Shown one piece after another: positions 3,909 through 31,683 of a stretch of DNA of 33,912 nucleotides. Source of the stretch: a virus. Positions within the stretch are counted from its first letter, which is position 1. Each line of letters opens with the position of its first letter. A program made the position numbers and the translations under genes. The notes under the pieces were generated by a model that was not told the origin of the DNA, searched no databases, and worked only from the letters and a program-made list of their open reading frames with translations. The stretch is from the IMG/VR virus record IMGVR_UViG_3300025327_000106, positions 1 to 33,912 of that record. The stretch is one strand, 5' to 3'.

Positions 3909-3920
3909 TATGAGGTAAAC

Positions 3921-4223: not shown

Positions 4224-4234
4224 GAGATACAAAT

Positions 4235-11090: not shown

Positions 11091-11975
11091 ATGAGGATGG
11101 GGAAAATGAATAGGTTAATTAAGATTCAATGGGCTATAATTACTTGGGCTATTATAATGGTCCCTATTATAGCTTATAGTAATTTAAGTTTTCACACAGA
11201 AGCATTAGTTGATGATCTGTTGTTGATTATTGATCCTGATCATGATGGAGCAATGTCTGATACAGATCTGACTTTGAATTCTGTAACCACAGCAGCTACA
11301 ACAAGTCCTGGTGTCACATTAAAAGATAGTGATGCTCCTGGAGCTGATAAAGAGATAGCAACATTTCAGGCTGAGTATGTTGATGGTGCTGATGGAAGTG
11401 AAAATGCCGATGTTTTAATATATACTTGGCAAGGAGGAAGCAAGACATTAATCGCACAATTTGATGAGTCTGATGATCAGTGGGAAACTTCAAAAGTCAT
11501 AAATTCTTCTGGGGGATTTATTGGAACATTAACAGGAAGTTCCACAAGTGTTGGGGGTGCAAATGGAGTTGATTCAGATGATTACACAGACGGCTCTATT
11601 TTTTTTGAGCATTTGGCAACTGCAACTCTTGGTATAGTTACAAAAACCACTGCCGTAGATTATACAATAGGCACTACTGATGCCAAAGAAGCATATGGTG
11701 GGATAATTTATGTTACTGGTGCATCAACTATAACTGTTCCTGCTGTTGCTGAAAGAATGGCTTTTACCATAGTGACCATTGGTGCTGTGGCAGTAAGTTT
11801 AGATGTTAGTGCTTCTGATAGACTGTATTTAGATGGAACTGCTTTATCCGATGGTGATAAAGCAACCAATACATCCACAACAGGGGATATGTTAGTTTGT
11901 ACTTATGAAAGTTCTTCTGGATTTTATTGTGCCTCTGGATCACCTGACGGAGATCACTGGACGGATGGAAACTAG
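11091..11975 (+). CDS. Cassette A gene 1: signal-bearing protein with shared C-terminal domain
   Basis: Three in-frame ATGs occur (11091, 11097, 11106); the last has GAGGATGGGG before it and fits a signal peptide start (MNRLIKIQ then a hydrophobic stretch through IIMVPIIAYS). The mature protein of about 265 residues is Thr/Asp/Gly-rich and beta-type, with DPDHDGAMSDTDL, an EF-hand-like acidic loop, near the N-terminus. The last 95 residues (from YGGIIYVTGAS to the end) match the C-terminal domain of the first gene of cassette B at 26622: a YGG start, a central D-x-x-x-x-DGT, GD[MF] then Cys, and a terminal GW/HW. A fibre or adaptor role is inferred. Confidence 0.6.
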   Translation: MRMGKMNRLIKIQWAIITWAIIMVPIIAYSNLSFHTEALVDDLLLIIDPDHDGAMSDTDLTLNSVTTAATTSPGVTLKDSDAPGADKEIATFQAEYVDGADGSENADVLIYTWQGGSKTLIAQFDESDDQWETSKVINSSGGFIGTLTGSSTSVGGANGVDSDDYTDGSIFFEHLATATLGIVTKTTAVDYTIGTTDAKEAYGGIIYVTGASTITVPAVAERMAFTIVTIGAVAVSLDVSASDRLYLDGTALSDGDKATNTSTTGDMLVCTYESSSGFYCASGSPDGDHWTDGN

Positions 11976-11983
11976 GTGACTAT

Positions 11984-13072
11984 ATGAAAAAGTATATATT
12001 AACTGTACTATTATTATTATTATTAATACTAATTTCAGTTTGTTACGGATCTTCTTTACAATATCAACAATTGTCTGTGCTTCAAATGTATTCTGGTGGG
12101 GGTGTTGCATGCTCTCCCACCTATGATAGCGAATTGCAAACCGATGCCAATGCCGCTGAGCCCGACGCAAGCGACACAAACGCCACAACGGGGTTGACAA
12201 ACTATACGTTGGAAACGTTTGAATCAACTACCACAAACCCTAGCCTTGGAACTTATCATATCAATGCCGTTGCTGATTCGATTAACGATAGATTTGTAGA
12301 TGTGTTGACAGGCCTTACCGACGGGGTAGCCTATCGAATTTCATTCGACGTGGCACACAATGGAACCGGAAACAATTGGGCCTGCCGGATTGCCGACCAA
12401 ACAAGCAGCAGCGATAAAATACTGCTCAAGGCGTTGACTTCAGCCGATACGACGTATTCAAGCGTATCGGCATATTTTATCAAGACTGCTGACCTTGATC
12501 ACCTTCAATGCATTGCCACAACGGACACCGGTGGAGTACTTTTTGATAACTATTCTGTAAAAGCAATCACATCACCATGCCTTGGAGGCGAGCTGCACAC
12601 CAGCGAAAATGCAGCCTCGCTTTCCAACGAAGCCAGCGCTGTTACTGGGTTTACCGTAACCGGTATAGACACATTCGAAAGCGTCTCAACTGATACTCCT
12701 CAAGCCGGGACCTACCATTTGCATATTAGGGAGGTTGATACACCAACTGGTAGCGCTAGAATTTATATGGATATTGGCACCTTATTCAGCCTCCAAGAGG
12801 GCGTAAAATACTATCTTACGTTTTGGGGCAAAACCTCTGGGTTAGCCGCTGCTACTTGGAGGATGGGGTTTTCGACCTCTACGACATCTATAGATAACGG
12901 GAAGATAATCGGCACTCTAACCGATGCAGATACTAGTTATAAAAAACAGGGTGTTTCATTTACTTATACATCTGGTAGTCACAGATATTTTACGATAATG
13001 GAAAACAACGTGGCCAATACGGGAGAATTATGGATCGACTCTTTAAGCATAAAAGAAGTTGTTTCGGAGTAG
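11984..13072 (+). CDS. Cassette A gene 2: secreted protein with two carbohydrate-binding-like domains
   Basis: This 362-residue protein begins with a textbook Sec signal (MKKYILTVLLLLLLILISV). The mature part holds two repeats of about 150 residues. Each starts with a Cys and an acidic stretch, then TxFES or TFES, GTYH, a V/I-rich core and a closing strand (FDNYSVKAI and IDSLSIKEV). This is the usual look of CBM_4_9-type jelly-roll modules that bind glycans. The first 125 bases are AT-rich like the rest of the phage, while the rest is clearly richer in GC, so the mature domains may be of foreign origin. The next gene starts inside its 3' end. Confidence 0.65.
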   Translation: MKKYILTVLLLLLLILISVCYGSSLQYQQLSVLQMYSGGGVACSPTYDSELQTDANAAEPDASDTNATTGLTNYTLETFESTTTNPSLGTYHINAVADSINDRFVDVLTGLTDGVAYRISFDVAHNGTGNNWACRIADQTSSSDKILLKALTSADTTYSSVSAYFIKTADLDHLQCIATTDTGGVLFDNYSVKAITSPCLGGELHTSENAASLSNEASAVTGFTVTGIDTFESVSTDTPQAGTYHLHIREVDTPTGSARIYMDIGTLFSLQEGVKYYLTFWGKTSGLAAATWRMGFSTSTTSIDNGKIIGTLTDADTSYKKQGVSFTYTSGSHRYFTIMENNVANTGELWIDSLSIKEVVSE

Positions 13073-14465
13073 TATTTTTAGTTTTATTTGCAACCAACTC
13101 CAATGCTGCAACACATTGGGTATCCCCGACCGGTGGGGCAACCTGGGCGGCTTCAGAAAGCGCAACTCCTCTTAGCGGTACGGCTTGCACAACGTATCAA
13201 CTCGCAATGGCAAATGCTGATGATGACGACATCGTAAATTTCAGGGTGGGAACTTATGTTTTGGATTTACAAACCCCATTGTCAAACGGCAACAGAGCCA
13301 ATATGCGCCCAACTAATTCGGGGTCTCTTGGGCATGTAATCACTTTCCAGGCATATAATCAAGAGCAAGTTATCCTTGACAATTATACCAATAATCATCT
13401 GGTGCATACGTCTACTCTACCAACCTTTGGGAGCTATGTAACGAGCTATCATGTGTGGGATGGATTTACCACAACACAGCTAGCGCGAGATACAACTTCT
13501 GGGCTTGCCAAGGCTGCTGCTTTTGACGGCGCTGACAGTGTTGTAATTAAAAATTGCGTCCTTGCGGGTGATCCCATCGGGAAAAGCAACAGCTCAAGTA
13601 TTCGTTTGGAGGATTGTGATGGAATACAGATTGTCAACAACCTGCTTTATAACAACGGTAGGTCAGGCACGGACCCAACCAACCCATCCGGAGTAGAGAT
13701 TTATGACAGTAGTAATGTAACTGTCGAGAAGAACACCATGCACACATCATGCAATGGCGTTTATATGAAATCAGGTACTTCCAACAACATTACCGTACAG
13801 GATAATTACTTTTATAACTGCAACAAGGCTATAAGCATTCTATCGAAATGGGACACGCCGGGAACGAACGATGATGATTTCTATGAAAATCACATCTACC
13901 GACGTAACGTCGCAAGGAATTGCAGCGATGGGTTTATATCCACTCCTGGTGGTGATGGGCAGTATGGTGCTTGGTCTATTGGATTGATGTTCTACAACAA
14001 CACTTCATACGCAGAAAATGGGTACAATACGTCAATCTATCACATTGGGCGTAAACATACACAATGGTTTAATAACATTGTGTATACTACCTCTTCAAAT
14101 AAGTATGTCAATATGTCTGAGGATGCAGATAGCATTTCATATGCAAATTATAATCTCTACTTTGGCTCTACTGCCAACCCTATGTTTTTGTTTTTATTTG
14201 AGGGCGGAACGGTAGAAAACTACGCCAATATAACCGCTTGGAAAACCCACGCTACAGGGTGGGAATCTGCAAGCGAAGTGTCAAATCCGAATTTTCTCAA
14301 TGGATCTGGTGCACTCAATACCGTCGAAGATTTTAAACTGCAAACCTCATCCCCAACACTTGCAAAAACAGGGGGCCGTGGCGGTGCCTACCCGGCTTAT
14401 TTGGGTGCCTGGGAGTGGCCAATAAACGAGTCACAGCAGATAGGCTATGTGGTGTCTGGAGAAAC
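12110..14465. other. GC-richer mosaic segment inside cassette A
   Basis: Base use changes sharply inside two reading frames. Hand counts of 60-base rows give 18/60 G+C at 11161 and 18/60 at 14521, but 32/60 at 12121 and 33/60 at 13141. The left edge falls just after the signal peptide of the 362-residue protein and the right edge just after the beta-helix of the 703-residue protein. The C-terminal repeats after 14465 return to phage-like AT-rich sequence. This suggests transfer of one block carrying the binding and beta-helix domains. Confidence 0.7.
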
Positions 14466-15141
14466 GGGAGATATTACCGCTCCAACAGTAATATCAGTAG
14501 CAGTTAATACCTCAACAGCAACTATTACATTTGATGAAGATATTGTTTCTACAGGTTACGATGCTTCTGATTTTGATCTTGATTGCTCCACAACTGGAAA
14601 TGATTTGGTGCTGACAAGTCCATCAGGATTAGGATCTAGTAGAACATTTACAGTTGCAAGTCCTATTGTGTTTGGAGAAACATGTAGCTTGGATTATGTT
14701 GGAACCACTGATGATATAGAAGATACTTCAGGAAATGATTTAGCAGTATTTTCAAATGCAGAAGTCACCAATGACACTCCTGATCCTGGTGATACAACTG
14801 ATCCAGTAATTTCCAATGGACTCCCTTCAGGAGTACAGAGTTGTGCCTCTGATCCGCGGAATATTGATATGTCTGTCACAACTGATGAAAATACTGATTG
14901 CAGGTATGGGCTGTCAGGAACAATTTGGGATAATATGTCTGTTTTTTCTACCACTGGAGAAACTTCCCATTCCGTTACCATTTCATCTTTAGATTGTGGG
15001 GAATCATATAGTTATGATGTTATTTGTCAAGACCCTTCTAGTAATGAGAGTCTTCCAGCAGATATCGACTTTTCGATTTCTGCTCAGTCAGTAATAAAAA
15101 CCATAGAGGGCTGTGGGTTTTCTGGAGCAGACATAGATTAA
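13030..15141 (+). CDS. Cassette A gene 3: secreted right-handed beta-helix protein with Ig-like C-terminus
   Basis: The ATG at 13030 lies 43 bases inside the preceding gene and has GGGAGA five bases before it. A Sec signal ends near NSNA (residue 26). Residues about 27-475 carry the short repeats of a right-handed parallel beta-helix, with many N-x-(I/V)-x-N-N turns (DGIQIVNNLLYNN, SNVTVEKNTMH, NITVQDNYFYNC), and close with LGAWEWP (458-464). This fold is common in pectate-lyase-like enzymes and phage depolymerases. An Ig-like domain with Thr/Val strands follows (480-585), then a fibronectin-like domain (590-690). Enzyme activity is not shown; no catalytic residues could be assigned. Confidence 0.7.
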   Translation: MDRLFKHKRSCFGVVFLVLFATNSNAATHWVSPTGGATWAASESATPLSGTACTTYQLAMANADDDDIVNFRVGTYVLDLQTPLSNGNRANMRPTNSGSLGHVITFQAYNQEQVILDNYTNNHLVHTSTLPTFGSYVTSYHVWDGFTTTQLARDTTSGLAKAAAFDGADSVVIKNCVLAGDPIGKSNSSSIRLEDCDGIQIVNNLLYNNGRSGTDPTNPSGVEIYDSSNVTVEKNTMHTSCNGVYMKSGTSNNITVQDNYFYNCNKAISILSKWDTPGTNDDDFYENHIYRRNVARNCSDGFISTPGGDGQYGAWSIGLMFYNNTSYAENGYNTSIYHIGRKHTQWFNNIVYTTSSNKYVNMSEDADSISYANYNLYFGSTANPMFLFLFEGGTVENYANITAWKTHATGWESASEVSNPNFLNGSGALNTVEDFKLQTSSPTLAKTGGRGGAYPAYLGAWEWPINESQQIGYVVSGETGDITAPTVISVAVNTSTATITFDEDIVSTGYDASDFDLDCSTTGNDLVLTSPSGLGSSRTFTVASPIVFGETCSLDYVGTTDDIEDTSGNDLAVFSNAEVTNDTPDPGDTTDPVISNGLPSGVQSCASDPRNIDMSVTTDENTDCRYGLSGTIWDNMSVFSTTGETSHSVTISSLDCGESYSYDVICQDPSSNESLPADIDFSISAQSVIKTIEGCGFSGADID

Positions 15142-15154
15142 ATAAGGAATTAAA

Positions 15155-15568
15155 ATGTCTACTATTCTAAATCAAAGTGAATTAGCTCAAATAATATCTG
15201 ATGTCAGAAGTATTTTAACTGATGATACAATAGGAACCTCAATTTATTATCATAAATTTGATTCTGCATCTGCTCTGTCTAGTTGGTCACCAACAACAGG
15301 TTTGCTCCCTGTTATGTACTCAATATCTTCTGTTTCTGTTTTCAAAGGAAGTTATAATGTTCAGGAAATAATGCAAAGTGGTGGGCTTATTGAACAGGGA
15401 GATATTAAATTTATTTTGATGAGAGATGATGTTTCCGGAGTGCTATCTGTTGACGATAGAATAGTAGAATCTGCAAAAAATTATCAATCTGCAACAACTT
15501 ATGAAATACGGAATATTCAAAGAGATCCTTTAGCTATTTGTAATTTTATCCAGGCAAGGTCTCTATGA
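15155..15568 (+). CDS. Head closure/head-tail joining-like protein
   Basis: This 137-residue protein starts after AATAAGGAATTAAA. It has a helical N-terminus (ELAQIISDVRSILTDD) and a beta C-terminus with VDDRIVESAKNYQSATTYEIRNIQRDPL. The TYEI...DPL pattern with a final strand resembles the head closure family that seals the connector. It lies just before the gp10-like gene, which it overlaps by four bases. The match is by pattern and order only. Confidence 0.55.
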   Translation: MSTILNQSELAQIISDVRSILTDDTIGTSIYYHKFDSASALSSWSPTTGLLPVMYSISSVSVFKGSYNVQEIMQSGGLIEQGDIKFILMRDDVSGVLSVDDRIVESAKNYQSATTYEIRNIQRDPLAICNFIQARSL

Positions 15569-16032
15569 TAACTTTAGACATAGACACTTCCAGGCTTAAT
15601 TATAGAGTAACAAAATTCATTCAACAGTCTGGTTTAAGCGCCAGAGTAGTAATAAAGAAAACTGGTGCTGATCTTCTAAGAAATATTATTCGTCCAGAAC
15701 CTTACGGAAGACATCCTGTTTGGAGTGGTAGAGCTAGAGCAGGTTGGTACATGTCAATGAAAGCACTAAATGTTACTGTTGGTCTTGAGGGGGGGCTTAA
15801 AGCTCCCTCCCAAGTTTCTTTAGGAAAAGCGGAAGGGGGATTCATTGATAGATTGAGTGATCCAAATCTACCTACAATAACTTTAATCAATTCCGTAGAT
15901 TATTATATCTATTTAGAATATGGGTATAGTAAGACAGCCCCCTATGGAATGGTACGGGTTTCAGTTAGAAAGATGACATATAAGTTTGCAAAAGATTTAA
16001 GAGCAGGAATTCTTAGTAATTGGAAGAAGTAA
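15565..16032 (+). CDS. HK97 gp10-like neck/tail completion protein
   Basis: This 155-residue protein overlaps the previous stop by four bases (ATGA-type). It contains RPEPYGRHPVWSGRARAGW, the R-x-P-x-x-[TS]GR-x-R-x-x-W type motif, and later NSVDYYIYLEYGYSKTAPYGM followed by VRVSVRKM. That pair of motifs (N-x-x-x-Y-x-x-x-x-E-x-G-x-S, then P-x-GM) is characteristic of the HK97 gp10 family, which works at the head-tail junction. The length is typical for the family. Confidence 0.8.
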   Translation: MITLDIDTSRLNYRVTKFIQQSGLSARVVIKKTGADLLRNIIRPEPYGRHPVWSGRARAGWYMSMKALNVTVGLEGGLKAPSQVSLGKAEGGFIDRLSDPNLPTITLINSVDYYIYLEYGYSKTAPYGMVRVSVRKMTYKFAKDLRAGILSNWKK

Positions 16033-16097
16033 AATTTCCGTGAATAATTTTATACTATATCTTTATAGATAAGTTATTTATTTGAAAGGATTTTAAT

Positions 16098-16271
16098 ATG
16101 GACTGCAAACAATTATTGATAGAAGCAGGATTTTCAAAGAGAAAAGCAGAGGAACATGCCTCTGCTCTAAATTCTGCTATTGAAAAACATAAAAAGGGGT
16201 GTACTGAAAATTGTAAGTGTAAGGATACCCAAGAAATAAAAAATGAGTATGATCTAAATACAGAAGAATAA
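16098..16271 (+). CDS. Small Cys-containing hypothetical protein
   Basis: A 57-residue ORF starts at ATG 16098 with GAAAGGA ten bases upstream and ends at TAA 16269-16271. It begins MDCKQLLIEAGFSKRKAEEH, a short basic/acidic helix, and carries CTENCKC (Cys35, Cys39, Cys41) which together with Cys3 could bind a metal. It lies between the gp10-like gene and the tail tube gene, in line with the late operon. No family recognised. Confidence 0.5.
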   Translation: MDCKQLLIEAGFSKRKAEEHASALNSAIEKHKKGCTENCKCKDTQEIKNEYDLNTEE

Positions 16272-16289
16272 ATTGGAGGATAAAAGAAA

Positions 16290-16877
16290 ATGACTACCAC
16301 GTTTCAGGGGTACGATGGAGAGATGAGGATTATTTCTTATGGTACTACTCCTTCTACCTCTACAGGCTATCTTGAGCTTTTGTTTTGTGAGATGGATTTT
16401 TCTGGTCCCATTTCTAGACCTAAACGAAATGAAACTTTGATTCTAAATCGAGGCAGATTTGATACGGACGCTCACTATATAGAAGGCAGTGATGAAGACG
16501 TCTATATGCCTCTGCAGTTTACTGTATCATGTAGATTGGCAGATACAGTCCATACAAATGTACTTCATGAGTTGATTTCTGGTGTTACCAAGCTTTCTGG
16601 CACTACTCAACTTTATTCCTGGAAAACTCATACCACTATTAATGGAGTAAGCACTCCAGCATTTGCTGATTCTACTGGTAAGTTTGCTTATAGAGTAGAA
16701 ATGCTGTGGGACGGTGACACTGATTATGGTTTCAGATATGAAGAGGTGTACTTTCAACCTGGACAGCAAACAATCAATGAATCTGCTAACTCATTGATGT
16801 TAAATATGACAGGCATGATTTTTGGTGATGTTACAAGAATCAGTGCCTTTACTTCTGGGGTTACTTCACTGGTTTAA
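16290..16877 (+). CDS. Major tail (tube) protein
   Basis: This 195-residue protein starts after TTGGAGGATAAAAGAAA, a strong site suited to high expression. It is an all-beta, Gly/Thr-rich protein with GYDGEMRIISYG at the start and a middle Trp-rich part (YSWKTHTTINGV, EMLWDGDTDYGFRYEEVYF). It is followed directly by the frameshift chaperone pair and the tape measure gene, the fixed order of siphovirus tail genes. The size matches tail tube subunits. Assignment rests mostly on order. Confidence 0.7.
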   Translation: MTTTFQGYDGEMRIISYGTTPSTSTGYLELLFCEMDFSGPISRPKRNETLILNRGRFDTDAHYIEGSDEDVYMPLQFTVSCRLADTVHTNVLHELISGVTKLSGTTQLYSWKTHTTINGVSTPAFADSTGKFAYRVEMLWDGDTDYGFRYEEVYFQPGQQTINESANSLMLNMTGMIFGDVTRISAFTSGVTSLV

Positions 16878-16907
16878 TTTTATTAACTTTTTAACAAATG
16901 GTGATTT

Positions 16908-17692: not shown

Positions 17693-17722
17693 TAATACTA
17701 CTTATATTAGGGAATTAATATA

Positions 17723-20700
17723 ATGGGTGCATCAGACATAATTGTAAAAGTTGGGGCAGATTTAGCTGGTTTCAAATCATCCATGCAGGAGGTTGGCGGT
17801 ATTGCTGAAACATCTATTAAGCCAGCATCCGTAGCAATTGATTTGTTGAAAAAGGGACTGATTGGTCTTGGTGCTGCACTTACAACTGTATCAATTATTG
17901 GTGCCCGTTATGAACAAACGTTGATTGAAACTGCCACTGTAGCAGGTGCGTTTGGTGATGAACTTAAAAATCTTGAAAACAGTTCTCGTAGTTTAGCAAC
18001 AACTACGGCATTCTCAGCTAGAGAAGTGGTTGGGGCGTATTACGATCTTGCATGCTTACCTCCTGGTGAATTTATTCTTGGTGGGGATTTTAGAGTTCAT
18101 CCAATAGAACAATTTCCAGAAATTGATATTATTGGAAATAACGGGTTACCTCAAGCAATAAAAGAATTTACCAACAGAAAATGTAGTGAAGGTACCTTAT
18201 ATAAAATAAAACCCAGAAACTTGAGACCTTTTAAAGTTACTGGTAACCATCCTATTTATGCAATTAAGGGCAAAAAATGCAAAGGCAGTATTTGTAAACC
18301 ATCTTGTACCAAAGGTTCAAATTGTACAAGAAATTATTGGGAGAAGTACACACCTGAATGGATAAGATCAGAAGATTTAGAGCAAGGGGATATTTTACTT
18401 CAACCGATAATTAAAGAAGAGAGGGATATTCCTATAGAATGGGATATAGTTTCTTGCGCCTATAATAGGGGATTTGATCATGATAAATTACCAAAACAAG
18501 TTGATGAGAATTTTGCTTATTTTTTAGGTTTGTTTCTTGGCAATGGATGGGCTGATAAAAACCAAGAAAGAGTTTACTGTGCAATTTCTAAAAAAGAAAC
18601 AGAAAAATGGTTTATTGAGTATGTAAATAGTTTAGGATACACCCATCAAATTCGGGAAATGCAAAACTGCAATCAAATTTGTTTTTGGTCTGCTCCAATT
18701 GCAAGGTTAATTCATAAATGGATTGGTAGTGGAGCAGAGAACAAAAGAATCCCTCCTGAATTGTTTTACGCAAAAAAGAATATAATAATTGCTTTTTTAA
18801 AAGGTTACTTAGACACCGATGGTTGTTTGTTTTATGCTAATAATCGTCCCATAATCAGTATCTCAACAATTTCTCCTCATATCGCTTATTTTATTAATTA
18901 TTTATCCGCAAAAATTGGGGATGTTTTCAGTATAGTCTTTGATGATAAAGAAAAAAATGGCAGAACACATAGGCTAATGCCAAGTGGATATTATTCTGAA
19001 TTAAAAGATAGTTACACTATTAAAAATAGTAGCAAATCGTTTATATCCCAATTTTACAACCTAAAAACTGATTGTGTTGAGTGTGGGTACAAAAAAGCTT
19101 GGATAAGTAATGGTTTTGTTCATTATCCAATCCTAAAAATTGATTTAGAAGTATATTATGGGCAAGTTTATAATTTTGAAACTGAGGATAATACATATTC
19201 AACGGGAGTAATTGTTCATAACTCTTCAGGAATGTCCGCAACTCAAATCATAGCCTCTGGAGAACATGCAGCAAAACTGGCAGGAGCCACAAATGCAGAG
19301 ATGTCCGAAGCTACCCATATTTTAGCATCGGCTTTACGCATGTTTAACATTGAAGCAGATGATAGTAGACGTGTAACAGACACTTTTACTACAGCAATAT
19401 CTAAGTCTCTTTTAACCATGGACAAGTTAACTATTGCCTTCAGATATGCTGGTGCTACTGGTTCTTCATTAGGGTGGTCAATTGAAGAGACTACAGCAGC
19501 AATATCTAAACTAACCGATCTTGGCCTGACTGGCGAAATTGCGGGAACAAACATCAGATCTGCCATGTCTCATCTAATGCGACAAACAACTGAAATGACA
19601 GAAGAATTAGAAAAGTTAGGAATGACATATGCAGAAATTAATCCTCAAACAAAGGGGTTTGGAGATATATTAAACGCTTTAAGTAAACATTCTTTCACTG
19701 CTGCTAATGCTATTAAAGTATTTGGTGTAGAATCTGGCTTGAACATGAAAAACTTGGTTGACAAAGCCAGAGAAGGCACATTGAAATTTGAAGAATTTGT
19801 AGAGATGATCAAGGAAGGTCAAAAAGGAATAGGCACTACTGCTGAAATGTATGACCGTATGATGGACACTTTCCAAAATCAATGGAAGGTGATGGTTAAC
19901 AGTTTAATGGAATTAGCTTTGGTCTTCTTTGATACATTTAAAGAAGAAGGTAAAGATGTTTTTACCAGAATGGCAGAAAGAATTAAAGAATTTGCTGAAT
20001 ATGTGAAAACAAACAAACATGTTTTTGAAGATTTAATAAGTATAATGTTAAAGCTTGTAGAATATACAGGCATAGCTATAGTTAAATTGGGTGAATTTGC
20101 TACTGGTTTTGTTGATTTTTTCACTTTTTCAACTGTTAGAAAACAATTGGATGAGGTCATTGCAAAAAGTGAAAAATTAAAAGAATTAGAGTATGAAATG
20201 GGTAGAGGTCATGGGAGTCGTGCCCAAAATGCCGAACGACTTATGAAAGCTATGGATGGTGATAAAGAAGCAATAGACTCCCTCAATAAGTCCTTTGAAA
20301 AATCCACCGAATTGACTAAGGAACAAAATAAAGTTATTGATGATGCTATTGAAACTCGTGAACGAATGCTTCAAATGCTTGATAAAACTGTGGAACGACA
20401 TAATGTGTCATCAAAAAAACAAAAAGAGGTTGTTAAAGTTACCAAAGAAGTTGTAGAAGTTAATGAAGAGGCAAATTATGGAGTACAGGCTCTTTATTCT
20501 GGTATTGATGAACTGGTTGAGAGTTGGGAAAAAGAATACCTTGCAGAACAAAAGTCACGAATTGAAAAGCAAAGAATGCATTTGGAAATGCAAAAGTTAA
20601 TTGATGACCATGCGGAGTTAATGAAAGAGTTGATCGTATCAACTGATCTACAAACCAAGTATACTGAAAAAACCCAATATTCTTTTATTTCAGGATGGAA

Positions 20701-22189: not shown

Positions 22190-24852
22190 AATCTAAAATA
22201 ATTGTCTCCAGTTTAATAGAACCAGAAAACTTTCTATTCACCCCTGAACAGGCAGGCCCATATATAGATCAGCCTAAAGTTCAGTCTTCTGGAAATACTG
22301 GTGAATTTAGGTTAATTTCAAGGGGAGATTTTGATAACAACATAAATGATTTTATTTTTCATAGTTTTGCTACTGCTAATAGTGCTACTTATGGAGAAGT
22401 TGTTGATTCCAGATTAAAAATGTTTGGTGATGAATTTTTTATAGGAGCAACTGTAGGAGTTGGATCAGATGTTTATGGACCTTTCAAGGTAATTGATTTT
22501 TCCCAATCTGGGGGAACCCTTTATGTTCAGGCTCCTGGTTTTTATACCGTTTCAGTTAATGTTAGTTATACATTAACTGCATCATACAATAATAAAAAGT
22601 TTTTGGTTCATTTGACTTCTGAAGGTGATGCAGGAGATGCACGGTTTAAGTGGTCTCCTGATGGGGGAGCTAATTATTTTGGAAGAAATAATCCTAATGC
22701 GGCTAATTGGCTAGGTGTTAGTGCTGTTCTTGAAATGACAAATGGTGCTTTTCCTATTACTGTAACTCATCATATGATTAGTCCTATTGTGCAAGCTGCT
22801 GATGGGGATCTTCTTGTTGCGGCATATAATAGAACTTTGTCCTTTACAAAACTGACATCTTCTGAAAACAGGGGTCTGCAATTTGTTCCTAATCCTAATG
22901 ATTATATTTTATATGATCCTGCTATAAATGTGACTGAATATAATTACCCTATTGGTTTACTTCGTTTTAAATACAATCGGACTTATAAAAACAGAATAAT
23001 GTTTTATGAAGTAAATGGTTATGGAGTTAATAAAAATTATTATCTCCGAGCATTGCACTCTGATGATAATGGGGAAACATGGAATAATTCTGGAATTTCT
23101 GTGCCTTTTGCAGTTAGTGCAACTTATGGAGTTACCACAACTAGAACTTCACAGATAACAGAACTTCCTGATGGTAAAGTAATTCTACCTTTTATTACTT
23201 CTAATGGATCTGGTAATGGCATTGCTTGTTTGACGTCTTATGATGGATTAAACTTTACTAGTGAAATACCAATATATACCAATGATCTAATCATTAAGGA
23301 TTCAGTTGGAATTACAGTTTCAGATGAAGGAAGAATTTTTTGTTTTTATACTCACGGTGGTATTAGTGGCATATCCGGAAGTACACATAAATTATATTAC
23401 ATTTATTCTGATAATAATTTCCAAAGCGTTGCTAATGATACGAATGCTATTAGAATTGGATCAACAGTCACCGGCAGTTTAAGACATCCATTTGGATTTA
23501 AAGATATAAATGGAGATTTGTATGTTTTTTGTGAGGAAACTATTAGTGGTGCTACTAGACCTCATATAGTGTTTTTTAGATCGGCAGACAGTGGTGATAC
23601 TTGGGGAAGTAAAACAGTAGTGGTTTCAGAACTTTCTACATCTAAAGGTCAAGGCTGTGAAAGGCCCTATGTTACCCTAGTTGACGGACATGAAATTGTT
23701 ATGTCCTATATATCAGCTTCTTCTTCCCCTGTAAACTATGGAACTACAAAAATAATTAGAAGAGGAATGTGGGAAAAGTATTCTACATCCACAGGATGTC
23801 CTGTAGCTTCTGGCAGAACAGAACAAAAATTAGTAAATGATGTTGGAATTGAATGGTTAGGAGGTAATGGATCAATTGGGGACAGTTGGTTATTTTCTCC
23901 TAAATATAAATATGCATCATCAAATATTATATCTGATTCCCCCAACATAATTTGGAAATCTGTACATGATAGCGTTACATGTGAATTGATAATAGATATG
24001 GGTCCTACAAGAGGATATTTTGTTGATGGTGTAGCGTTATTCAATTGTAATTTCTCTTCTTGTTCAGTTCAATTAAACTCTGCAAACACTTGGGGATCTC
24101 CATATGAAAGTAAAAACATCTCCTTTACTTTAGGATCTGGATCTATTGAAGGAGGAATATCCCGTACAGTCATAAGAACAAATTCAACAGTTGCAAATAG
24201 GAATGATCATGAATTGAAAGGTTTGTTTTGCCATATAACTTCAGGAGTTTCTGCTGGTTATGTTTTTAGGATTTTAGATAACATTAATATTGGTACAGAG
24301 CGAAATGTCAATGACAGAAAATACCAAATATTTTTAGATGCTGATGTAAATTTAACTGGAGCTTTAATAGACGGAACAACTTTTGAAATTTACCAAAACA
24401 GCATTTGGGTGGAAATGCCTTATGATGTAACAAATAATAGTAGATATATCCGTATTTATATCCCTTCTCAAGGCTCCCCTGATGGATATTACCAGATTGG
24501 AAATGCTATCCTTGGAAAAATAACTACTCTTGATAATACTTGGGATTGGTCTAGCTATGATCAAGACCATGATATTAATGTTTCCCTCCTTAGAGCTTTG
24601 GGTGGAGGTATGACTCCTGTTGACCATGGCAACACAAAAAGAAAATTTAATCTAACATGGGATAAAAGCGAAAACAGTTACAAACAAATAAAAAGCATAG
24701 TTAATTTTGTAAGAGGAAAGAACATTGCTTTAATACCTGAAAGTTCTTCTTCTACAGAAGTGTATCTGGTTAAGCAGTCTGGATCAATTAAACAAAGTTT
24801 TCAATATGGAAATAAGTGGAATTTGTCTGTTCAATTTGAAGAAAGTGTCTAA
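22186..24852 (+). CDS. Distal-tail-like protein with inserted sialidase-like beta-propeller
   Basis: This 888-residue protein overlaps the tape measure stop by four bases. Residues about 170-530 contain propeller-type blades with two canonical Asp-boxes (S-x-D-x-G-x-T-W at 292-299 and 466-473), degenerate ones such as SYDGLNF, and strand text of the form TELPDGKVILPF and TLVDGHEIVMSY. This is the sialidase/BNR fold. The Arg expected in the first RIP motif is replaced (MISPIVQAADG), so activity is uncertain. The C-terminal 100 residues (from DHDINVSLLRALGGG to LIPES) look like the tail-associated domain of distal tail proteins. It likely forms the tail tip, with the propeller contacting host glycans. 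Confidence 0.6.
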   Translation: MKSKIIVSSLIEPENFLFTPEQAGPYIDQPKVQSSGNTGEFRLISRGDFDNNINDFIFHSFATANSATYGEVVDSRLKMFGDEFFIGATVGVGSDVYGPFKVIDFSQSGGTLYVQAPGFYTVSVNVSYTLTASYNNKKFLVHLTSEGDAGDARFKWSPDGGANYFGRNNPNAANWLGVSAVLEMTNGAFPITVTHHMISPIVQAADGDLLVAAYNRTLSFTKLTSSENRGLQFVPNPNDYILYDPAINVTEYNYPIGLLRFKYNRTYKNRIMFYEVNGYGVNKNYYLRALHSDDNGETWNNSGISVPFAVSATYGVTTTRTSQITELPDGKVILPFITSNGSGNGIACLTSYDGLNFTSEIPIYTNDLIIKDSVGITVSDEGRIFCFYTHGGISGISGSTHKLYYIYSDNNFQSVANDTNAIRIGSTVTGSLRHPFGFKDINGDLYVFCEETISGATRPHIVFFRSADSGDTWGSKTVVVSELSTSKGQGCERPYVTLVDGHEIVMSYISASSSPVNYGTTKIIRRGMWEKYSTSTGCPVASGRTEQKLVNDVGIEWLGGNGSIGDSWLFSPKYKYASSNIISDSPNIIWKSVHDSVTCELIIDMGPTRGYFVDGVALFNCNFSSCSVQLNSANTWGSPYESKNISFTLGSGSIEGGISRTVIRTNSTVANRNDHELKGLFCHITSGVSAGYVFRILDNINIGTERNVNDRKYQIFLDADVNLTGALIDGTTFEIYQNSIWVEMPYDVTNNSRYIRIYIPSQGSPDGYYQIGNAILGKITTLDNTWDWSSYDQDHDINVSLLRALGGGMTPVDHGNTKRKFNLTWDKSENSYKQIKSIVNFVRGKNIALIPESSSSTEVYLVKQSGSIKQSFQYGNKWNLSVQFEESV

Positions 24853-24855
24853 AAT

Positions 24856-26625
24856 ATGACTATTATTCATGATGCATTGGGCGCCATTCTATATGGCTCG
24901 GACGGTCTTCCTATTGTTGATGTAGATGGTGATGGTATTGCTGCTGGACCATATGTTTCTCCAATTGCCAGACAATTGCGAAATGCAAATGAAATTCATT
25001 TTCTATTGATATTAGATTTTGATGGCACCAAAAAATATTATTCTGATGCCAACATATCTTTTGGCGATCATCAATTTGAAGATAAAATCCTAAGTATTTC
25101 GGATATAAAATCTTCTTTTGATATCCGAAATTTCAAATATTCCTTTCCCTCAATTTCGATAACAATTAAAAATCCATTTACTTCTGAAGATCGCTTACAA
25201 GATCTAGATGCTTTAAAAGTGTTAGATGGAAGTGTTGGAGATATTTACATTTGGGCAACTGATATTTCTTGGGAATTGTTAATGGAGGAAGGGCCTAAGT
25301 TTTCTGGAATATTCCAAGAAAATATTTATGACAGTGAAACATTTACATTTAACTTAGTAGATAAATCGGAAAGTAAATTTTCAACATTAACGAATAAATA
25401 TATTGATTCAAATACCTTTCCTTACCATCCATCCGAATATTCTGGAAATGTCCAGCCACTTATCTTTGGTGCTTGGGGAAAAGGGGTTCCTCTTGATTGT
25501 ATAGTGGATGAAGCTATCTATGGATTTTCAACTATTAATAGATACTTAATATCAATAAATTCATTATATTCTTCTGTGTCTTGTTTCATCACAGGACAAG
25601 AGCATATATTTTCGTCATCTGGAGTTACTTATTCTGGTATAGTAAATGTCGGTGGAACTACAATAACCACAGCTATAGACAATGAAGGAACCGTTTACTC
25701 GTATATTAATTTTAATGATAGGCAAACTGCTTCTGAACCGTTAAATTGCTCTATTAAAGGTGTTAAGGATATAGCCAACAACTTAATTGAGCATCCTGCA
25801 AATATATTTGAATTCGTTTGTAATAATTATTCTAACCTTACACCATCTGAAGTAGATAAAGTTAGTGTTAATTCTTTTAAAGCAATCATGCCTTTTGCAA
25901 AATGTGCTTCCATTGTAAACGATAATATTGAAGCCCCCAATTTTATTGACAGAATTTTTAGCCCATTTCTATGTGCCAGAATTACAGTTGGTAACAAAAT
26001 TGGAATTATGATTCCTGATTTAAATGATTCTCCAATAGCAAGATTTTCAAAAGACTTCAATAATGTAGGGGAAAGAATTTCAATTACCAAAACTGATTAC
26101 AATCTGATTTGTAATGATTTGACTGTTTTTTACAATTTAAATCCTGCAACTGGAAAATATCAAAGTGTTGTCAAAAGAAATAAATCCAACAGTGAAAAAT
26201 GTGAGTCTTCTTATTATAACCACAAAGAAAAGCTGTTTCAAAAAACACTAAAGTTTTCTGATATAAATGATTCTGGAATTGCAGAAGCATTAGCTGAAAG
26301 GTATTTAGATTTTTATGCTCATAGACACCATATCATGTCTATAGATATGAAATATGGTGATGCTTATGACCTGAAAGAAGGGGATTTGGTTCTATGGACA
26401 ATTCCTGAAGGTGGTAGAACCATTCCTGGTGGGTGGGTTGACGAGAAATTCATTCTGTTAGAAAAAGCATATAAAAAAGAATATATTTCTACAGTTTGGT
26501 GGAAAGTGTCAACTGTTGCAAGTAACAAACAAATGGCTACATCTTCTGGTGGTGCTGGCTCTGGTGGGTCTTCTGCTGGTTATGGGTGGCTTGGGGATGG
26601 ATGGCTTGGAGAAGGGTGGTTATGA
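24856..26625 (+). CDS. Tail hub/tail-associated protein
   Basis: This 589-residue protein follows the distal-tail-like gene after three bases, the usual place for the hub. It begins with DALGAILYGSDGLPIVDVDG, an N-terminal extension resembling that of the tail-terminator-like protein at 10027. The central part is mixed alpha/beta with many aromatic residues, as in baseplate hub proteins. The C-terminus ends in a Gly/Ser linker and three copies of a G-W-L-G type unit (YGWLGDGWLGEGWL). The first gene of cassette B starts inside its last codons. Assignment rests on order and general character. Confidence 0.6.
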   Translation: MTIIHDALGAILYGSDGLPIVDVDGDGIAAGPYVSPIARQLRNANEIHFLLILDFDGTKKYYSDANISFGDHQFEDKILSISDIKSSFDIRNFKYSFPSISITIKNPFTSEDRLQDLDALKVLDGSVGDIYIWATDISWELLMEEGPKFSGIFQENIYDSETFTFNLVDKSESKFSTLTNKYIDSNTFPYHPSEYSGNVQPLIFGAWGKGVPLDCIVDEAIYGFSTINRYLISINSLYSSVSCFITGQEHIFSSSGVTYSGIVNVGGTTITTAIDNEGTVYSYINFNDRQTASEPLNCSIKGVKDIANNLIEHPANIFEFVCNNYSNLTPSEVDKVSVNSFKAIMPFAKCASIVNDNIEAPNFIDRIFSPFLCARITVGNKIGIMIPDLNDSPIARFSKDFNNVGERISITKTDYNLICNDLTVFYNLNPATGKYQSVVKRNKSNSEKCESSYYNHKEKLFQKTLKFSDINDSGIAEALAERYLDFYAHRHHIMSIDMKYGDAYDLKEGDLVLWTIPEGGRTIPGGWVDEKFILLEKAYKKEYISTVWWKVSTVASNKQMATSSGGAGSGGSSAGYGWLGDGWLGEGWL

Positions 26626-27647
26626 TGAAAAAATTATGGTTAATTTTATATAGTTTACTTTTCATTTTCAATACTCCGGTTGTCGATGCATCTACTGGTA
26701 TGCATTGGTTTATTGGTCTTACTGGAGGAACAGATACTTCATTAGATAGATATGATAATAGTGGAACTGATGCTTATGTTGACGGCAATATTGCTGTGGG
26801 TTCTGATGGAAGTGGAAACTTTTATGCCTATACGTATGATGAAGATCTTGTACAAGCTGAAGAACCTCCTACCTATATAGTTCCAGATGATAATTCCACA
26901 GGAACAGGTTGTTGGGTATTGTTAACAACATCTTCAGTAACCGTGGGGACATGCACTGATGGATCGTGTACAGCAGCAGGTTTGTTTGCCGATATTATTG
27001 GATTGGGAAGTCTAGATTTTTCTGATATTGCTACAATACATGGCCCCTTGATTTTTTTGGATACTGATGGAGATCCTACAGTTGTCGGCCAATTACGATA
27101 TGACAATACTATCACTGGAATTGATGATGGTGAATATAGTTGGTATGATGATGACGAAATAAGGGTGTTTGTAACATACCCTGTAGGGTTGCTTCCTACT
27201 GTAGATGGAAGTTTTTTACTTTATGACTCTGCTGAAGATCAGTGGGAACCTACAAGTCCTTTGTTATTGACTACACCAATCTATACAACACATGAAATAA
27301 ATGGTAAATTGGATGTAACTGATTTTACTGCTGCCACAGGAGATATTTCTGCTCAATCACATTATGGTGGAGTAGTTACAAATAATGATGCAGATGCTAT
27401 TGAATTTGACTTAGATGCTGCTGTGGTAGGAATGTCTTTGATTGTAATTGATGATGCTGGTGGAGTAATAACTATAGATCCAAATGGAACAGATACTATT
27501 GTTTATGATGGAACAACTGCTGCTGCAGGTGAAGCAATATTATCTTCTGGAGCAAAGGGAGATTTTGTGTCATTAGTTTGTTTAACCGCTAATCAGTGGA
27601 TTGTTATTGGTCATGATTCTAATGGTTGGGCTGAGACAACACCATGA
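26622..27647 (+). CDS. Cassette B gene 1: signal-bearing protein with shared C-terminal domain
   Basis: The start at ATG 26622 is preferred to the upstream GTG at 26586 because it gives a good Sec signal (MMKKLWLILYSLLFIFNTPVVDA) and overlaps the hub stop codon. GAGAAGGG lies nine bases upstream. The mature protein of about 318 residues is beta-type and Asp/Thr/Gly-rich, with HWFIGLTGGTDTSLDRYDNSG near the start. Residues from HYGGVVTNNDADA to the end match the C-terminal domain of the 294-residue protein of cassette A (YGG, central DPNGTD/DGT, GDF, final GWA). It ends in an overlap with the next gene. Confidence 0.65.
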   Translation: MMKKLWLILYSLLFIFNTPVVDASTGMHWFIGLTGGTDTSLDRYDNSGTDAYVDGNIAVGSDGSGNFYAYTYDEDLVQAEEPPTYIVPDDNSTGTGCWVLLTTSSVTVGTCTDGSCTAAGLFADIIGLGSLDFSDIATIHGPLIFLDTDGDPTVVGQLRYDNTITGIDDGEYSWYDDDEIRVFVTYPVGLLPTVDGSFLLYDSAEDQWEPTSPLLLTTPIYTTHEINGKLDVTDFTAATGDISAQSHYGGVVTNNDADAIEFDLDAAVVGMSLIVIDDAGGVITIDPNGTDTIVYDGTTAAAGEAILSSGAKGDFVSLVCLTANQWIVIGHDSNGWAETTP

Positions 27648-28381
27648 TAAAAAAATATTTTATTATTCTATTTTTAATCTTATTACTTCCATCAATTTGC
27701 CTTTCTTGGGGAACGGCAGTAGTTGGTAGTGGATCTCAATCCATAGCTCCTAGTTTTTGCGACTGTGGTGCTACTGATGTTTTATGGTGTTGGGAAGTAA
27801 CAAATACAAATACAACAATTACTGCTAGCGGTGGGTGTGCTGATGCTGGATGGGACACTACAGGAACGGCAGCAAGTGCAATTAACATTGTTGATGCTCC
27901 TACTGGAAAAACTGGAAGTGCAGTACATTGGAGCAGTGCACAAGATTATTATTCCTTTTCTTTGCCTACAGGAACCATAGACTCAGAAGGAACTGTTGTT
28001 TTTGACATTTATTTAATTTCATTTGCTTCCAGCACCCTGTTTTTTTGGGCTTTTGGGAATTCAAATGTGGACGAATTAGCAATTAGCTTAACTGGAACGG
28101 ATGAGATTTATTTTGCCCATTATGGAAATTCAAATTCTGTATTGACAACGACTACTGCTGCCAATTTAGTATTGGATACATGGTATACTATAACAGTTAA
28201 ATGGAGACAAGGGGTCACTGATCCTTCACTTTCTATTAATGCTAACAGCACAACTATAACATCAAATACCGATCTGACTAATTGGGAGGCAGACTCTACA
28301 GGTATGCGGATAGGTAACTCTGCTTCTGGTATTTCTGAAGGATATATTAAAAATATAAGGATATACAGCTCATGGCAATAA
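27644..28381 (+). CDS. Cassette B gene 2: secreted lectin-like (LamG/concanavalin-type) protein
   Basis: This 245-residue protein starts in an ATGA overlap with the preceding gene and has a strong Sec signal (MIKKYFIILFLILLLPSICLS). Residues about 60-240 look like one concanavalin A-like jelly roll: GSAVHWSSAQDYYSFSLP, a central TWYTITVKWRQG strand, and the closing GYIKNIRIYSSW typical of LamG or pentraxin-type domains. These often bind sugars. A Cys-rich stretch near the N-terminus (CDCGATDVLWCWEV) may form disulfides after export. It occupies the same place as the CBM-like gene in cassette A. Confidence 0.65.
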   Translation: MIKKYFIILFLILLLPSICLSWGTAVVGSGSQSIAPSFCDCGATDVLWCWEVTNTNTTITASGGCADAGWDTTGTAASAINIVDAPTGKTGSAVHWSSAQDYYSFSLPTGTIDSEGTVVFDIYLISFASSTLFFWAFGNSNVDELAISLTGTDEIYFAHYGNSNSVLTTTTAANLVLDTWYTITVKWRQGVTDPSLSINANSTTITSNTDLTNWEADSTGMRIGNSASGISEGYIKNIRIYSSWQ

Positions 28382-31300
28382 AAATGTTAAAGATAGTCGG
28401 TTTACTTTTATTGTTCCCTTTAACATCTTATTCAGCAACAGAATATTACAGTCAAACAGCTACAGGGGGAGGAACTTCCTGCACTGCTGCACTCGGTATC
28501 GCTTCTTTCAACGATGGTGTTACTTCTGGAAATACTGCTGTTATATGTAATGATGGGGGATCGATTATTACAACTAGGTTGACATTGGACACAAATCATT
28601 CAAATATTACATTGCAAAATGAATCTGGAGCAGCTATAACACTAAGAGGGATAGATCTCGATAATTCAGATAATGTAACTATTCGTAAGAATCCCAGTGG
28701 TGGGTCATTAACTGTAAATGTTTCCAGTGGTTTTATTTTGAACAGTCAAAATGCTGACAATTTAACAATTGACGGTGTATCATTGATTGCATCTGGGAAT
28801 GGCTCATTAGTTCAATATAGACCTGTGACGTTTATTGCAAATGATGATTTAACAATTATTAATTCATATTTTAATTATGACACTGATCCAAATGGGACTT
28901 GCACTGCTTCTGGGGTTCCGCTATCTTGTTGCACTGGAGTTGATGTTGGCACATGTGGAAATTACAAACATGATATTATACAATTATCTGATTGTAATAG
29001 AGTTAACTTTGGGTATAATGTAGTGGCAAATGTAACCCATGCTGCTTTTGATACATCCATAACACCAAATAATTATGTTTGGGTACATCATAATTTATGG
29101 ACCAACCGATGGCGTCATGCAGTGGGTATAGATGGTAACGGGGACGAGAATATATTAATTGAGCATAATTTTTTTGATCAGGTGGGTAGGGATACATTAT
29201 TAAATCCTGCTGTTGTTGAAAGAAACAGAGCTGTTGCTTGTATAGAAATTGGTGGACCTCAAAAGGTAATTGCTCGTTTTAATACCTATGACAGACCATC
29301 TACAGCAATTAATATTTTTGATCTAACAAATTGGGTGAGTGTTGATCGGTTTATATACCACGAAACAATCTATAACCCAAAAACATATGGTACAACTGCC
29401 ACATCAAATGCAGGTGCTGCATTCTCTGGAAATTCAACTGATTTGTTAAATCATTTCTATTATAAAAATAATATTATATATGGTTCAGAATCAGTGTGGG
29501 ACATAACCCATCCTAATAGTACAGGGGCAAGCATTACAAATATGCTTTTTGATTCTAATTTGATTTGTGGTTTTGATTTTACAGCCAGTATTCGTATTGC
29601 TAATTCCACTTACTCTGGAATAAGTAATTTTAATGCCTCAGAATGGGGGGACAGAAATATTATCGGCAATCCTGCATTTATCAACGCTTCCACAGGTAAT
29701 TTCAATATTAACAATTCATCTGTTTGTAAAGATGGAGGGACCTTCTTGGCTTTTATTTCTGCTAAAAGTGGTAACCTTTTGACTCTTGTAGGTAACCATC
29801 AAGCATATCAATTTACAACCGATTGGGGGATTTCTGGTAAGTCGGACGATACAATCTATGAAAGTGATAATGGTACATCAACTACTGTTACAGCCATTAA
29901 TGCCCACAATCAAATAACAGTATTAAGTTCAAATGGATTTGATGTTGGGGATGGGATCACGGTTGTTAATTTTAAAGGCATCAAACCAGATATAGGGGCT
30001 TTTGAAGCACCGTCCACAATCAACGCAGCACCATCAGCAGTGATTGATACCCCTGTTGGTGCAATTACAACAACCGAAGAAGGAAATTTAATCAATTTTA
30101 CAGCGTCCGATTCTGATAGTGATGGGACTGTTGTTTCCCGATTATGGAATTTTGGAGATCCAAACATCCCCACTCAAACTGTACAAGATCCAGGGAATGT
30201 TCAGTTCAATACTGCTGGAGATTACACAATATCCTATTTTGTAACTGATAATGACAATGCCACATCTAATGTTGTCACTAAACAAATTAGAGTTGTAACA
30301 GCGGGTGGGGGAGAAGATTGTTCTCAAGGGTCAAATTCCACTGTTGATTTGTGTGCTGATGATGCCGTGGGATCTGCAATAGCAAATGATACATACTATC
30401 GATTTACCTTTGTAGCTCAAGAAAATTCTGATATTTGGGGAATTGTAATGAAATTTAAAACCTATTCAAATACAAGTGATAGGTTTATAGATATCAGAAT
30501 TGGGGAAACAAGTGATTTATCTGTGACATATTTAGCCAAGGCAACTGTAAATCTTACTGGGACATCATTTATTGAATATCAAATCCCATGGGTAGATTCC
30601 GCCGATGCTCCAGTATGTTTAAGTTTAGTATCAGGCAACACCTATCACATTATTTTTACAAAAGGTACAGGTATGGACACCTATACCATGTACTGGAAAG
30701 GGACTGGAACAGGAACTTGTACAGAGGAAGTTTCTTACACTGGAACATCATGGGCATCAACACCAACTGGTAATAGTAGAGATTTCTATTACAAGTTAAT
30801 TAAATCTGCTGGTTCTCCTGCTCAAGCGAGCATAACAGGAATTTTTCCTTTTATATCAAATGGTACATACGGTTTAGGAGAAACAATCACAGTGGCAATA
30901 ATAATGGACGTAGCGGAACCTTGGACTTCTGGTGGGTATTTGAGAACTGACGCTGTTGGAGGACCTTTTGACCTCTTGCACATACAACCAGCAAGCGGAA
31001 TAAGTTCAAATGTACATTATTATTCTGCTGCAATAACTGCTGGATTGTCTGCAACAGATTTGAATATATCTACCTTTGACCCTGGAACTTTTGATGTTTC
31101 ATCAACACTGCCAACATCAGAAAATCTTGCAGATAACGGTGATATAAATATCAGCACGTCAATGTCTATAACTTTAGACAGTATGGTTGCATGTGATAGT
31201 AATGGTGATGCCATCACCAAAGATACTCTATATTTCCAAAAACAAAATCCAAGATTAAAATTGTGTTTCTCAGAAGCAGCTATTTTTGCGGATGGATCAT

Positions 31301-31683
31301 TAAATGATTTTGCAATTTCCGTGCCTCCTGATAGTGGAGGACCATTGATTTATTCCTATCAAGAACAGCCTACTGGTTATGGATCTGAATATGAATGTTG
31401 GGTCTTTACTGCAGAGGTATCCCCAACACAAATAGAAAGTACTAATCTATCCCTGTCCTCAGTGCAGGATTTCAATAGGGATTATAACGGAGATGGAAAC
31501 TTAACTAGGATTACCAATGTAAATAATGTTCAGGTAACAAGCTATTCATTGCCCCAATTATTAATTGATCCAACATACATACAAACTGTTTTCGGACCGG
31601 GTTGCTTGTGTATAGACTCAGCAGCACCAGGATCATTAACAGTTGATAATACTGGCTCTGGTTCAATGTCTGTCGGTAATTAA
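28372..31683 (+). CDS. Cassette B gene 3: large secreted beta-helix protein with PKD-like domain
   Basis: Translation may start at ATG 28372, overlapping the previous stop, or at ATG 28384, which gives a cleaner signal (MLKIVGLLLLFPLTSYSA). Residues about 20-545 form a right-handed beta-helix (repeats such as NLTIDGVSLIASGNG, NRVNFGYNVV, ENILIEHNFFDQV), closing with IGAFEAP (541-547), the same terminal signature as the cassette A beta-helix protein. A PKD-like domain follows (about 550-640, RLWNFGDP, YTISYFVTDNDN), then a beta-sandwich with CSQGSNSTVDLC and further Thr/Ser-rich domains to the end. It is the largest cassette protein. A depolymerase or receptor-binding role is inferred. Confidence 0.7.
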   Translation: MAIKMLKIVGLLLLFPLTSYSATEYYSQTATGGGTSCTAALGIASFNDGVTSGNTAVICNDGGSIITTRLTLDTNHSNITLQNESGAAITLRGIDLDNSDNVTIRKNPSGGSLTVNVSSGFILNSQNADNLTIDGVSLIASGNGSLVQYRPVTFIANDDLTIINSYFNYDTDPNGTCTASGVPLSCCTGVDVGTCGNYKHDIIQLSDCNRVNFGYNVVANVTHAAFDTSITPNNYVWVHHNLWTNRWRHAVGIDGNGDENILIEHNFFDQVGRDTLLNPAVVERNRAVACIEIGGPQKVIARFNTYDRPSTAINIFDLTNWVSVDRFIYHETIYNPKTYGTTATSNAGAAFSGNSTDLLNHFYYKNNIIYGSESVWDITHPNSTGASITNMLFDSNLICGFDFTASIRIANSTYSGISNFNASEWGDRNIIGNPAFINASTGNFNINNSSVCKDGGTFLAFISAKSGNLLTLVGNHQAYQFTTDWGISGKSDDTIYESDNGTSTTVTAINAHNQITVLSSNGFDVGDGITVVNFKGIKPDIGAFEAPSTINAAPSAVIDTPVGAITTTEEGNLINFTASDSDSDGTVVSRLWNFGDPNIPTQTVQDPGNVQFNTAGDYTISYFVTDNDNATSNVVTKQIRVVTAGGGEDCSQGSNSTVDLCADDAVGSAIANDTYYRFTFVAQENSDIWGIVMKFKTYSNTSDRFIDIRIGETSDLSVTYLAKATVNLTGTSFIEYQIPWVDSADAPVCLSLVSGNTYHIIFTKGTGMDTYTMYWKGTGTGTCTEEVSYTGTSWASTPTGNSRDFYYKLIKSAGSPAQASITGIFPFISNGTYGLGETITVAIIMDVAEPWTSGGYLRTDAVGGPFDLLHIQPASGISSNVHYYSAAITAGLSATDLNISTFDPGTFDVSSTLPTSENLADNGDINISTSMSITLDSMVACDSNGDAITKDTLYFQKQNPRLKLCFSEAAIFADGSLNDFAISVPPDSGGPLIYSYQEQPTGYGSEYECWVFTAEVSPTQIESTNLSLSSVQDFNRDYNGDGNLTRITNVNNVQVTSYSLPQLLIDPTYIQTVFGPGCLCIDSAAPGSLTVDNTGSGSMSVGN

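Follow-up and report, generated by a model that had tools for sequence, protein, structure and literature searches.

Tail fibers and tailspikes are viewed as cytoplasmic proteins, assembled on the virion. Phage proteins that are exported to the host envelope include the lambda lom and bor products and T5 Llp; lom adjoins the tail gene J, and Llp blocks the phage receptor. In branched tailspike complexes, TSP4-N anchors and assembles the complex (PMC8825819). Here we analyze two three-gene cassettes of fiber-like and putative glycan-binding proteins in a 33.9 kb linear virus record, IMG/VR record IMGVR_UViG_3300025327_000106 (positions 1 to 33,912; we refer to this whole stretch as the window). 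The window reads as a siphophage structural region, and cassette A (11091-15141) and cassette B (26622-31683) both lie without gaps amid its head-tail genes. Every product of both cassettes is predicted to be exported, and it is this prediction, not stressed in an earlier sequence-only reading of the window, that sets the cassettes apart.

Two Cassettes with the Same Order of Parts

All six open reading frames (ORFs) lie where the sequence-only reading had placed them. Each cassette encodes, in order, a fiber-like protein with a shared C-terminal domain, a jelly-roll or carbohydrate-binding module (CBM)-like protein, and a repeat protein that closes with GA[WF]ExP:

11091..11975, plus strand: A1, predicted exported fiber-like protein, cassette A position 1; shared C-terminal domain at ~11643-11972
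11984..13072, plus strand: A2, predicted exported protein with two homologous jelly-roll/CBM-like halves (putative fold)
13030..15141, plus strand: A3, predicted exported right-handed beta-helix protein with an LGAWEWP motif and Ig-like domains; Pfam Beta_helix 3.1e-9, helix at ~13516-13845
26622..27647, plus strand: B1, predicted exported fiber-like protein, cassette B position 1; ATG start at 26622; C-terminal domain confident at ~27312-27644
27644..28381, plus strand: B2, predicted exported LamG-like jelly roll; Pfam Laminin_G_3 2.2e-5, just short of the curated cut-off
28372..31683, plus strand: B3, predicted exported long protein with N-terminal repeats and an IGAFEAP motif; Pfam PKD_4 3.8e-8, PKD at ~30055-30294

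The common order of parts, with its signals, had been proposed in the sequence-only reading and is beyond chance. Relatives were found in IMG/VR contigs with A1 as the query and then with alignments. We label the blocks of exported genes in contigs L003, L008, L006, L012, and L014 as G1, G2, G4, G5, and G6, respectively, with _n denoting the nth exported gene of a block. The C-terminal domain that A1 and B1 had been said to share was detected by blastp (E 0.002) and by local alignment score (z = 5.4, unmatched in 300 shuffles), and it is bridged by relatives: G4_1 matches A1 (4.6e-42; 40% identity over 253 residues), and G6_5 matches both B1 (8e-9) and A1 (3e-5). The N-terminal domain of B1 is also found in G4_1, G5_6, and G1_1, and A1 holds the central part of G4_1. 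As judged by these alignments, A1 and B1 are mosaics of one family.

At position 2, B2 is LamG-like, as proposed, and A2 has two halves that are homologous to each other (alignment score 141; hhalign 93.5%). The identification of A2 as a CBM is not supported: it had no hidden Markov model (HMM) or PDB match, and a Pfam scan of the position-2 domains at E up to 5 gave no CBM family. After its signal, A2 carries the tag SSLQYQQLSVLQ, which resembles GLLQERQAAV of its relatives.

At position 3, the closing motifs (LGAWEWP in A3 and IGAFEAP in B3) are both present, as are the beta-helix of A3 and the PKD domain of B3. The proposed beta-helix of B3 rests on a visual pattern; HMM and PDB sequence searches gave no match, and the single-sequence model was unusable (predicted local distance difference test [pLDDT] 34). 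B3 as a query against viral sequences gave no pattern match, and PDB sequence searches gave nothing meaningful. Right-handed beta-helices are above the Pfam cut-off in A3, G1_3, G4_5, and G6_8, and the equivalent of the GA[WF]ExP region in G1_3 is a choice-of-anchor Q domain (4.7e-7, above cut-off). Equal folds at position 3 are not supported, with the fold unconfirmed in B3 and G5_4.

The last Ig-like domain of A3 (14791-15084) is common to L003 16089-17216 (45-52% identity). Short C-terminal tails rich in glycine (GFSIKGYGATFYK, MSGGGGSGLSIR, RLTGVHGSFTY, and the like), frequently preceded by a TP-repeat linker, are alike by eye in A3, G1_3, G1_6, G2_3, G4_3, G5_4, G5_8, and the protein at L091 12615-14027, and they are a possible common C-terminal tag.

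The sequence-only reading had offered duplication as one origin of the paired layout. A2 and B2 show no homology (z = 0.4) and A3 and B3 only weak similarity, so that position 1 alone is clearly homologous; we therefore reject the duplication of cassette A into cassette B.

Cassette Products Carry Predicted Export Signals

The N-termini of all six window proteins pass a rule for Sec signals that is passed by 1-6% of their shuffled N-termini. Among the block proteins, 39 of 42 pass, versus 22 of 764 control (background) genes; of the three that fail, two are Tat-type copies and one lacks a charged N-terminus. For the window and block proteins taken together, shuffled N-termini pass the Sec/lipoprotein rule at 0-7.5%. 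The signals are of Sec, lipoprotein, or Tat type. Those of G1_1, G1_5, and G4_4 are lipoprotein signals, which imply membrane anchoring.

Because the block proteins were hand-picked, a fairer test is provided by 49 distinct contigs chosen by their protein match to G4_1 alone, mostly via a common tail-fiber shaft motif. In 46 of them the fiber has no signal, and a signal was called in only one of the 87 following genes. In the other three (L035, L048, and L091) the fiber has a signal, and so do five of the eight following genes (Fisher 6e-6 versus 1/87). The exported fiber of L048 ends in an S74 chaperone.

The hydrophobic N-termini might instead be helices that dock the proteins to the virion, as the location of the genes among structural genes would allow. 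We consider this extremely improbable: lipobox, Sec, and Tat types all occur, cleavage-site motifs are present, and L052 encodes a homologue without the hydrophobic stretch, residue 3 of which aligns to the mature region of G4_1. Signal swapping already largely refutes the docking explanation, as G5_7 has a Tat motif (NRRDFLRRAF) and G6_2, which is 63% identical, has a Sec signal. The Tat-type protein of the tail-fiber region is found at:

L012 11979-12548 and L008 16332-16898: Tat-type protein (MNRRDFLRRAF), homologue in L014 with a Sec signal

Cysteine makes up 1.27% of the mature exported proteins versus 0.32% of conventional fibers, a 4-fold difference (p = 7e-10). The excess of even over odd cysteine counts (21:11, p = 0.055) only suggests disulfides in the mature proteins.

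The Block Recurs in Unrelated Phages

The order fiber-like protein, jelly roll, third long protein, and FN3 protein was seen in G1, G2, and G6, and variants of it in G5, G4, and L091, where the block consists of a fiber, a jelly-roll-like protein, a lyase-like plus Ig protein, and an FN3 protein. The sequence-only reading had named recurrence of the triplet in unrelated phages as its own test, and the order does recur, less exactly in the last three. The backbones differ: G1 has a P22-like head and a podovirus-type portal, G5 has lambda J, and G4 and G6 have contractile tails. G2 is closely related to G5 in the block region. Relatives from cultured phages were not found in INPHARED (tblastn, ten queries).

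In four contigs (L003 13718-14350, L008, L012, and L006) the triplet is closed by an exported FN3 protein, the C-terminal region of which is Ada-like and contains CxxC. L016 (MEWG01000029.1) is a 10 kb phage contig that matches part of a 107 kb phage and is binned in a WWE3 metagenome-assembled genome (MAG; RIFOXYD1); it is possibly misbinned, or possibly from a real Patescibacteria phage. Inteins affect two genes of the 107 kb phage, portal and terminase (L006 2976-6000 and 17974-20475). The portal gene has an intein (4.5e-18). The terminase gene has the N-terminal half of an intein, followed by an ORF at 3881-4891 that intervenes before a third ORF with the remainder, as if from a split or invaded intein.

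Recognition Domains Are Swapped behind Constant Ends

G1_2 and G2_2 are 96% identical over their first 53 residues and then continue into unrelated domains, the best relatives of which are G5_3 and G6_7. G1_1 and G2_1 have 405 C-terminal residues in common and differ before them, and G1_3 and G2_3 have only their C-terminal ends in common. B2 is homologous to the C-terminal domain of the lipoprotein G1_5 (L003 14341-16098; 41% identity over 190 residues, 1.3e-29), and the two share the same SWQ-stop/MAI-start gene junction. Constant ends combined with variable domains are the pattern of receptor-recognition proteins. The description of the cassettes as modular surface-recognition units fits this swapping and the domain content, leaving aside its elements of duplication, equal folds, and a CBM in A2.

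The glycan-recognition domains found across the blocks are LamG, beta-helix, PL14-like, and Polysacc_lyase-like. The last three of these could belong to depolymerases that are secreted and free progeny by digesting the capsule or biofilm matrix that surrounds the infected cell, given the PL14-like G5_8 (3.1e-5), the Polysacc_lyase-like protein of L091 (9.6e-7), and the beta-helix proteins. Yet none of the six window proteins had a lyase match in Pfam, lipoprotein anchoring is ill suited to diffusible enzymes, and lysis alone would free such enzymes; we regard this as a highly unlikely role for the cassettes.

The Modeled C-Terminal Domain of B1 Resembles Tailspike and Baseplate Proteins

The B1 model was confident for its last 110 residues only (pLDDT ~88). 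A structure search with it returned tail proteins of uncultured phages, and in the PDB it matched the Pa223 capsid spike (1.3e-6), CBA120 TSP4-N (1.4e-5), and a Klebsiella KP1 baseplate protein (9.8e-5), with weak matches to T4 gp9 and T4 gp10. We take the modeled C-terminal domain of B1 to have a tailspike/baseplate-type fold; the aligned region was not displayed, and the matches are no proof of docking.

The same matches favor the possibility that the cassettes encode virion receptor-binding proteins that make a detour through export. The triplet would then form a branched complex, with position 1 as scaffold and positions 2 and 3 as binders, which would fold with disulfides in the periplasm and join the tails at lysis. 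The common fiber-shaft motif, the S74 chaperone in signal-bearing fibers, and the position beside tail tip genes and inside structural gene runs point the same way. However, tails assemble in the cytoplasm, and we know of no precedent for such a detour. The membrane anchoring implied by the lipoprotein signals also argues against it, as does the presence of conventional fiber-type genes in other contigs: G4 has them after its baseplate genes, with the exported block between terminase and portal, away from the tail genes; G6 keeps a signal-less collar-type fiber gene; and G5/G2 have a signal-less 307-residue gene after J. We consider the detour unlikely, and these ordinary fiber-type genes suggest that the exported proteins are accessory and not the sole receptor-binding proteins.

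Surroundings of the Cassettes

The structural genes identified in the window encode the major head protein, a tail-terminator-like protein, head closure, tail completion, and the tape measure. The genes that bear on the cassettes are:

10588..11070, plus strand: tail terminator-like gene; Pfam Phage_tail_terminator_5 1.2e-4 (sub-threshold); ends 20 bases before cassette A
15155..15568, plus strand: head closure (Hc1)-like gene; phrog_161 2.1e-6; 13 bases downstream of cassette A
24856..26625, plus strand: probable tail-tip gene, from its sequence and position; no family match in HMM/database searches; stop overlaps the B1 start (ATGA)
7183..9324, plus strand: Wzy_C O-antigen ligase/polymerase-like membrane protein; Pfam Wzy_C 9.5e-18

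With these short gaps and with overlapping gene starts, space for separate control is lacking around cassette A and at the start of cassette B, from which we infer late co-expression with the virion genes. Promoter and terminator scans gave many matches in the AT-rich DNA and were uninformative. This arrangement, with both window cassettes amid structural genes and without room for their own control, argues against another explanation, in which the cassettes are morons for host-type surface proteins, that is, lysogenic-conversion adhesins that alter the attachment or biofilm of the lysogen. So does the fiber-shaft motif, which is a tail-fiber motif. The G2 and G5 blocks do lie near integrases, choice-of-anchor Q and FN3/PKD domains are characteristic of surface proteins in bacteria, and the lom and bor products likewise are exported, but we find the adhesin explanation distinctly unlikely.

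Glycan genes are also found in some of the other phages. An FkbM methyltransferase gene adjoins the G1 block, and G4 has a nonulosonate-type operon (Polysacc_synt_2, DegT, NeuB, and cytidylyltransferase). A nonulosonic-acid-type operon at L023 8991-15859, in a 107 kb contig, comprises Polysacc_synt_2, NeuB, a DegT aminotransferase, a cytidylyltransferase, and an oxidoreductase.

Elsewhere in the window, the tape measure (17723-22189) is interrupted by a LAGLIDADG-containing insertion, intein-like in look. The signal-less tail-region protein at 22186-24852, which gave a weak, sub-threshold match to the BNR/sialidase repeat (1e-4), is a candidate conventional receptor-interacting protein.

Discussion

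The anatomy of the cassettes is well supported, and their mechanism is unproven. What the sequence itself shows is the order of parts, the predicted export signals, the recurrence across backbones, constant ends with swapped domains behind them, and the place in structural runs. We tentatively favor the interpretation that the cassettes encode glycan-binding complexes that are expressed late and exported, and that mask or alter the glycans of the host surface. They would constitute a mobile module of tailspike-like glycan-binding proteins made alongside the late structural proteins of tailed phages, with a fiber-like protein bearing a tailspike/baseplate-type C-terminal domain at position 1 and exchangeable jelly-roll and beta-helix proteins at positions 2 and 3. 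The products would pass through the inner membrane via Sec or Tat, some becoming lipoproteins, fold with disulfides in the periplasm, and then either remain on display at the envelope of the infected cell or be released from it. In that location they may bind surface polysaccharide, which some members perhaps also cut, and thus mask or alter receptors. Superinfection would be reduced as a result, and fewer progeny would re-adsorb to the dying cell or its debris. The module might act in concert with phage surface-glycan genes (Wzy_C, FkbM, and nonulosonate synthesis).

Several points weigh against this interpretation. Export, binding, and masking are predictions; the signal calls come from a simple rule and not from SignalP, and the limits of the blocks were picked by hand. 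Virion proteins would account equally well for the tailspike-type domain and for the place beside tail genes. Phages commonly carry glycan genes, and the co-occurrence reported here is an observation from these contigs alone. As to the host, the sole genome match is the possibly misbinned 10 kb contig in the WWE3 MAG. A broader formulation, that tailed phages of aquifer-type metagenomes use a new route for tail-fiber-like proteins, in which a receptor-binding-like module is exported by Sec/Tat, matures in the periplasm, and acts outside on released virions or the host envelope, seems to us somewhat doubtful.

If these proteins are indeed exported, phages also place tail-fiber-like modules on or outside the infected cell, as a recurrent, horizontally exchanged block. 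Several questions would then become testable: by what means phages keep their progeny from being lost to their own receptors, how rivals are excluded, and why some blocks are accompanied by glycan-modifying genes. A caution follows for viral metagenomes, in which "tail fiber" annotations can hide secreted proteins. A search of literature available without subscription found no description of exported tail-fiber cassettes, in keeping with the remark in the sequence-only reading that no named system is known to have this layout.

Among described systems, lom, bor, and Llp resemble the cassette proteins in their N-terminal Sec or lipoprotein signals; they are single small proteins, whereas the cassettes are multi-gene blocks of large, modular, putative glycan-binding fiber-like proteins, and no Pfam or PHROG match to Lom/Ail, Bor, or Llp was obtained. 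Bacterial choice-of-anchor Q/beta-helix surface proteins share with the blocks the domain of G1_3, above cut-off, and Sec signals, but the cassette genes sit in phage structural runs behind a fiber-like gene. Conventional tail fibers have in common with the blocks the DxADNDYAKFT..GLEGRS shaft motif and, in the case of L052, also the N-terminal domain; they differ in being signal-less in 46 of 49 contigs, with signal-less neighbors. The branched tailspike complexes of the Ackermannviridae (CBA120 TSP1-4) likewise consist of clustered glycan-recognizing proteins with exchangeable binding modules and have an assembly-type domain (PMC8825819) to which the modeled C-terminal domain of B1 may be similar in fold. 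That domain is N-terminal in the tailspikes and C-terminal in the cassettes, and whereas branched tailspikes are cytoplasmic and without signals, all six window proteins and 39 of the 42 block proteins carry predicted export signals.

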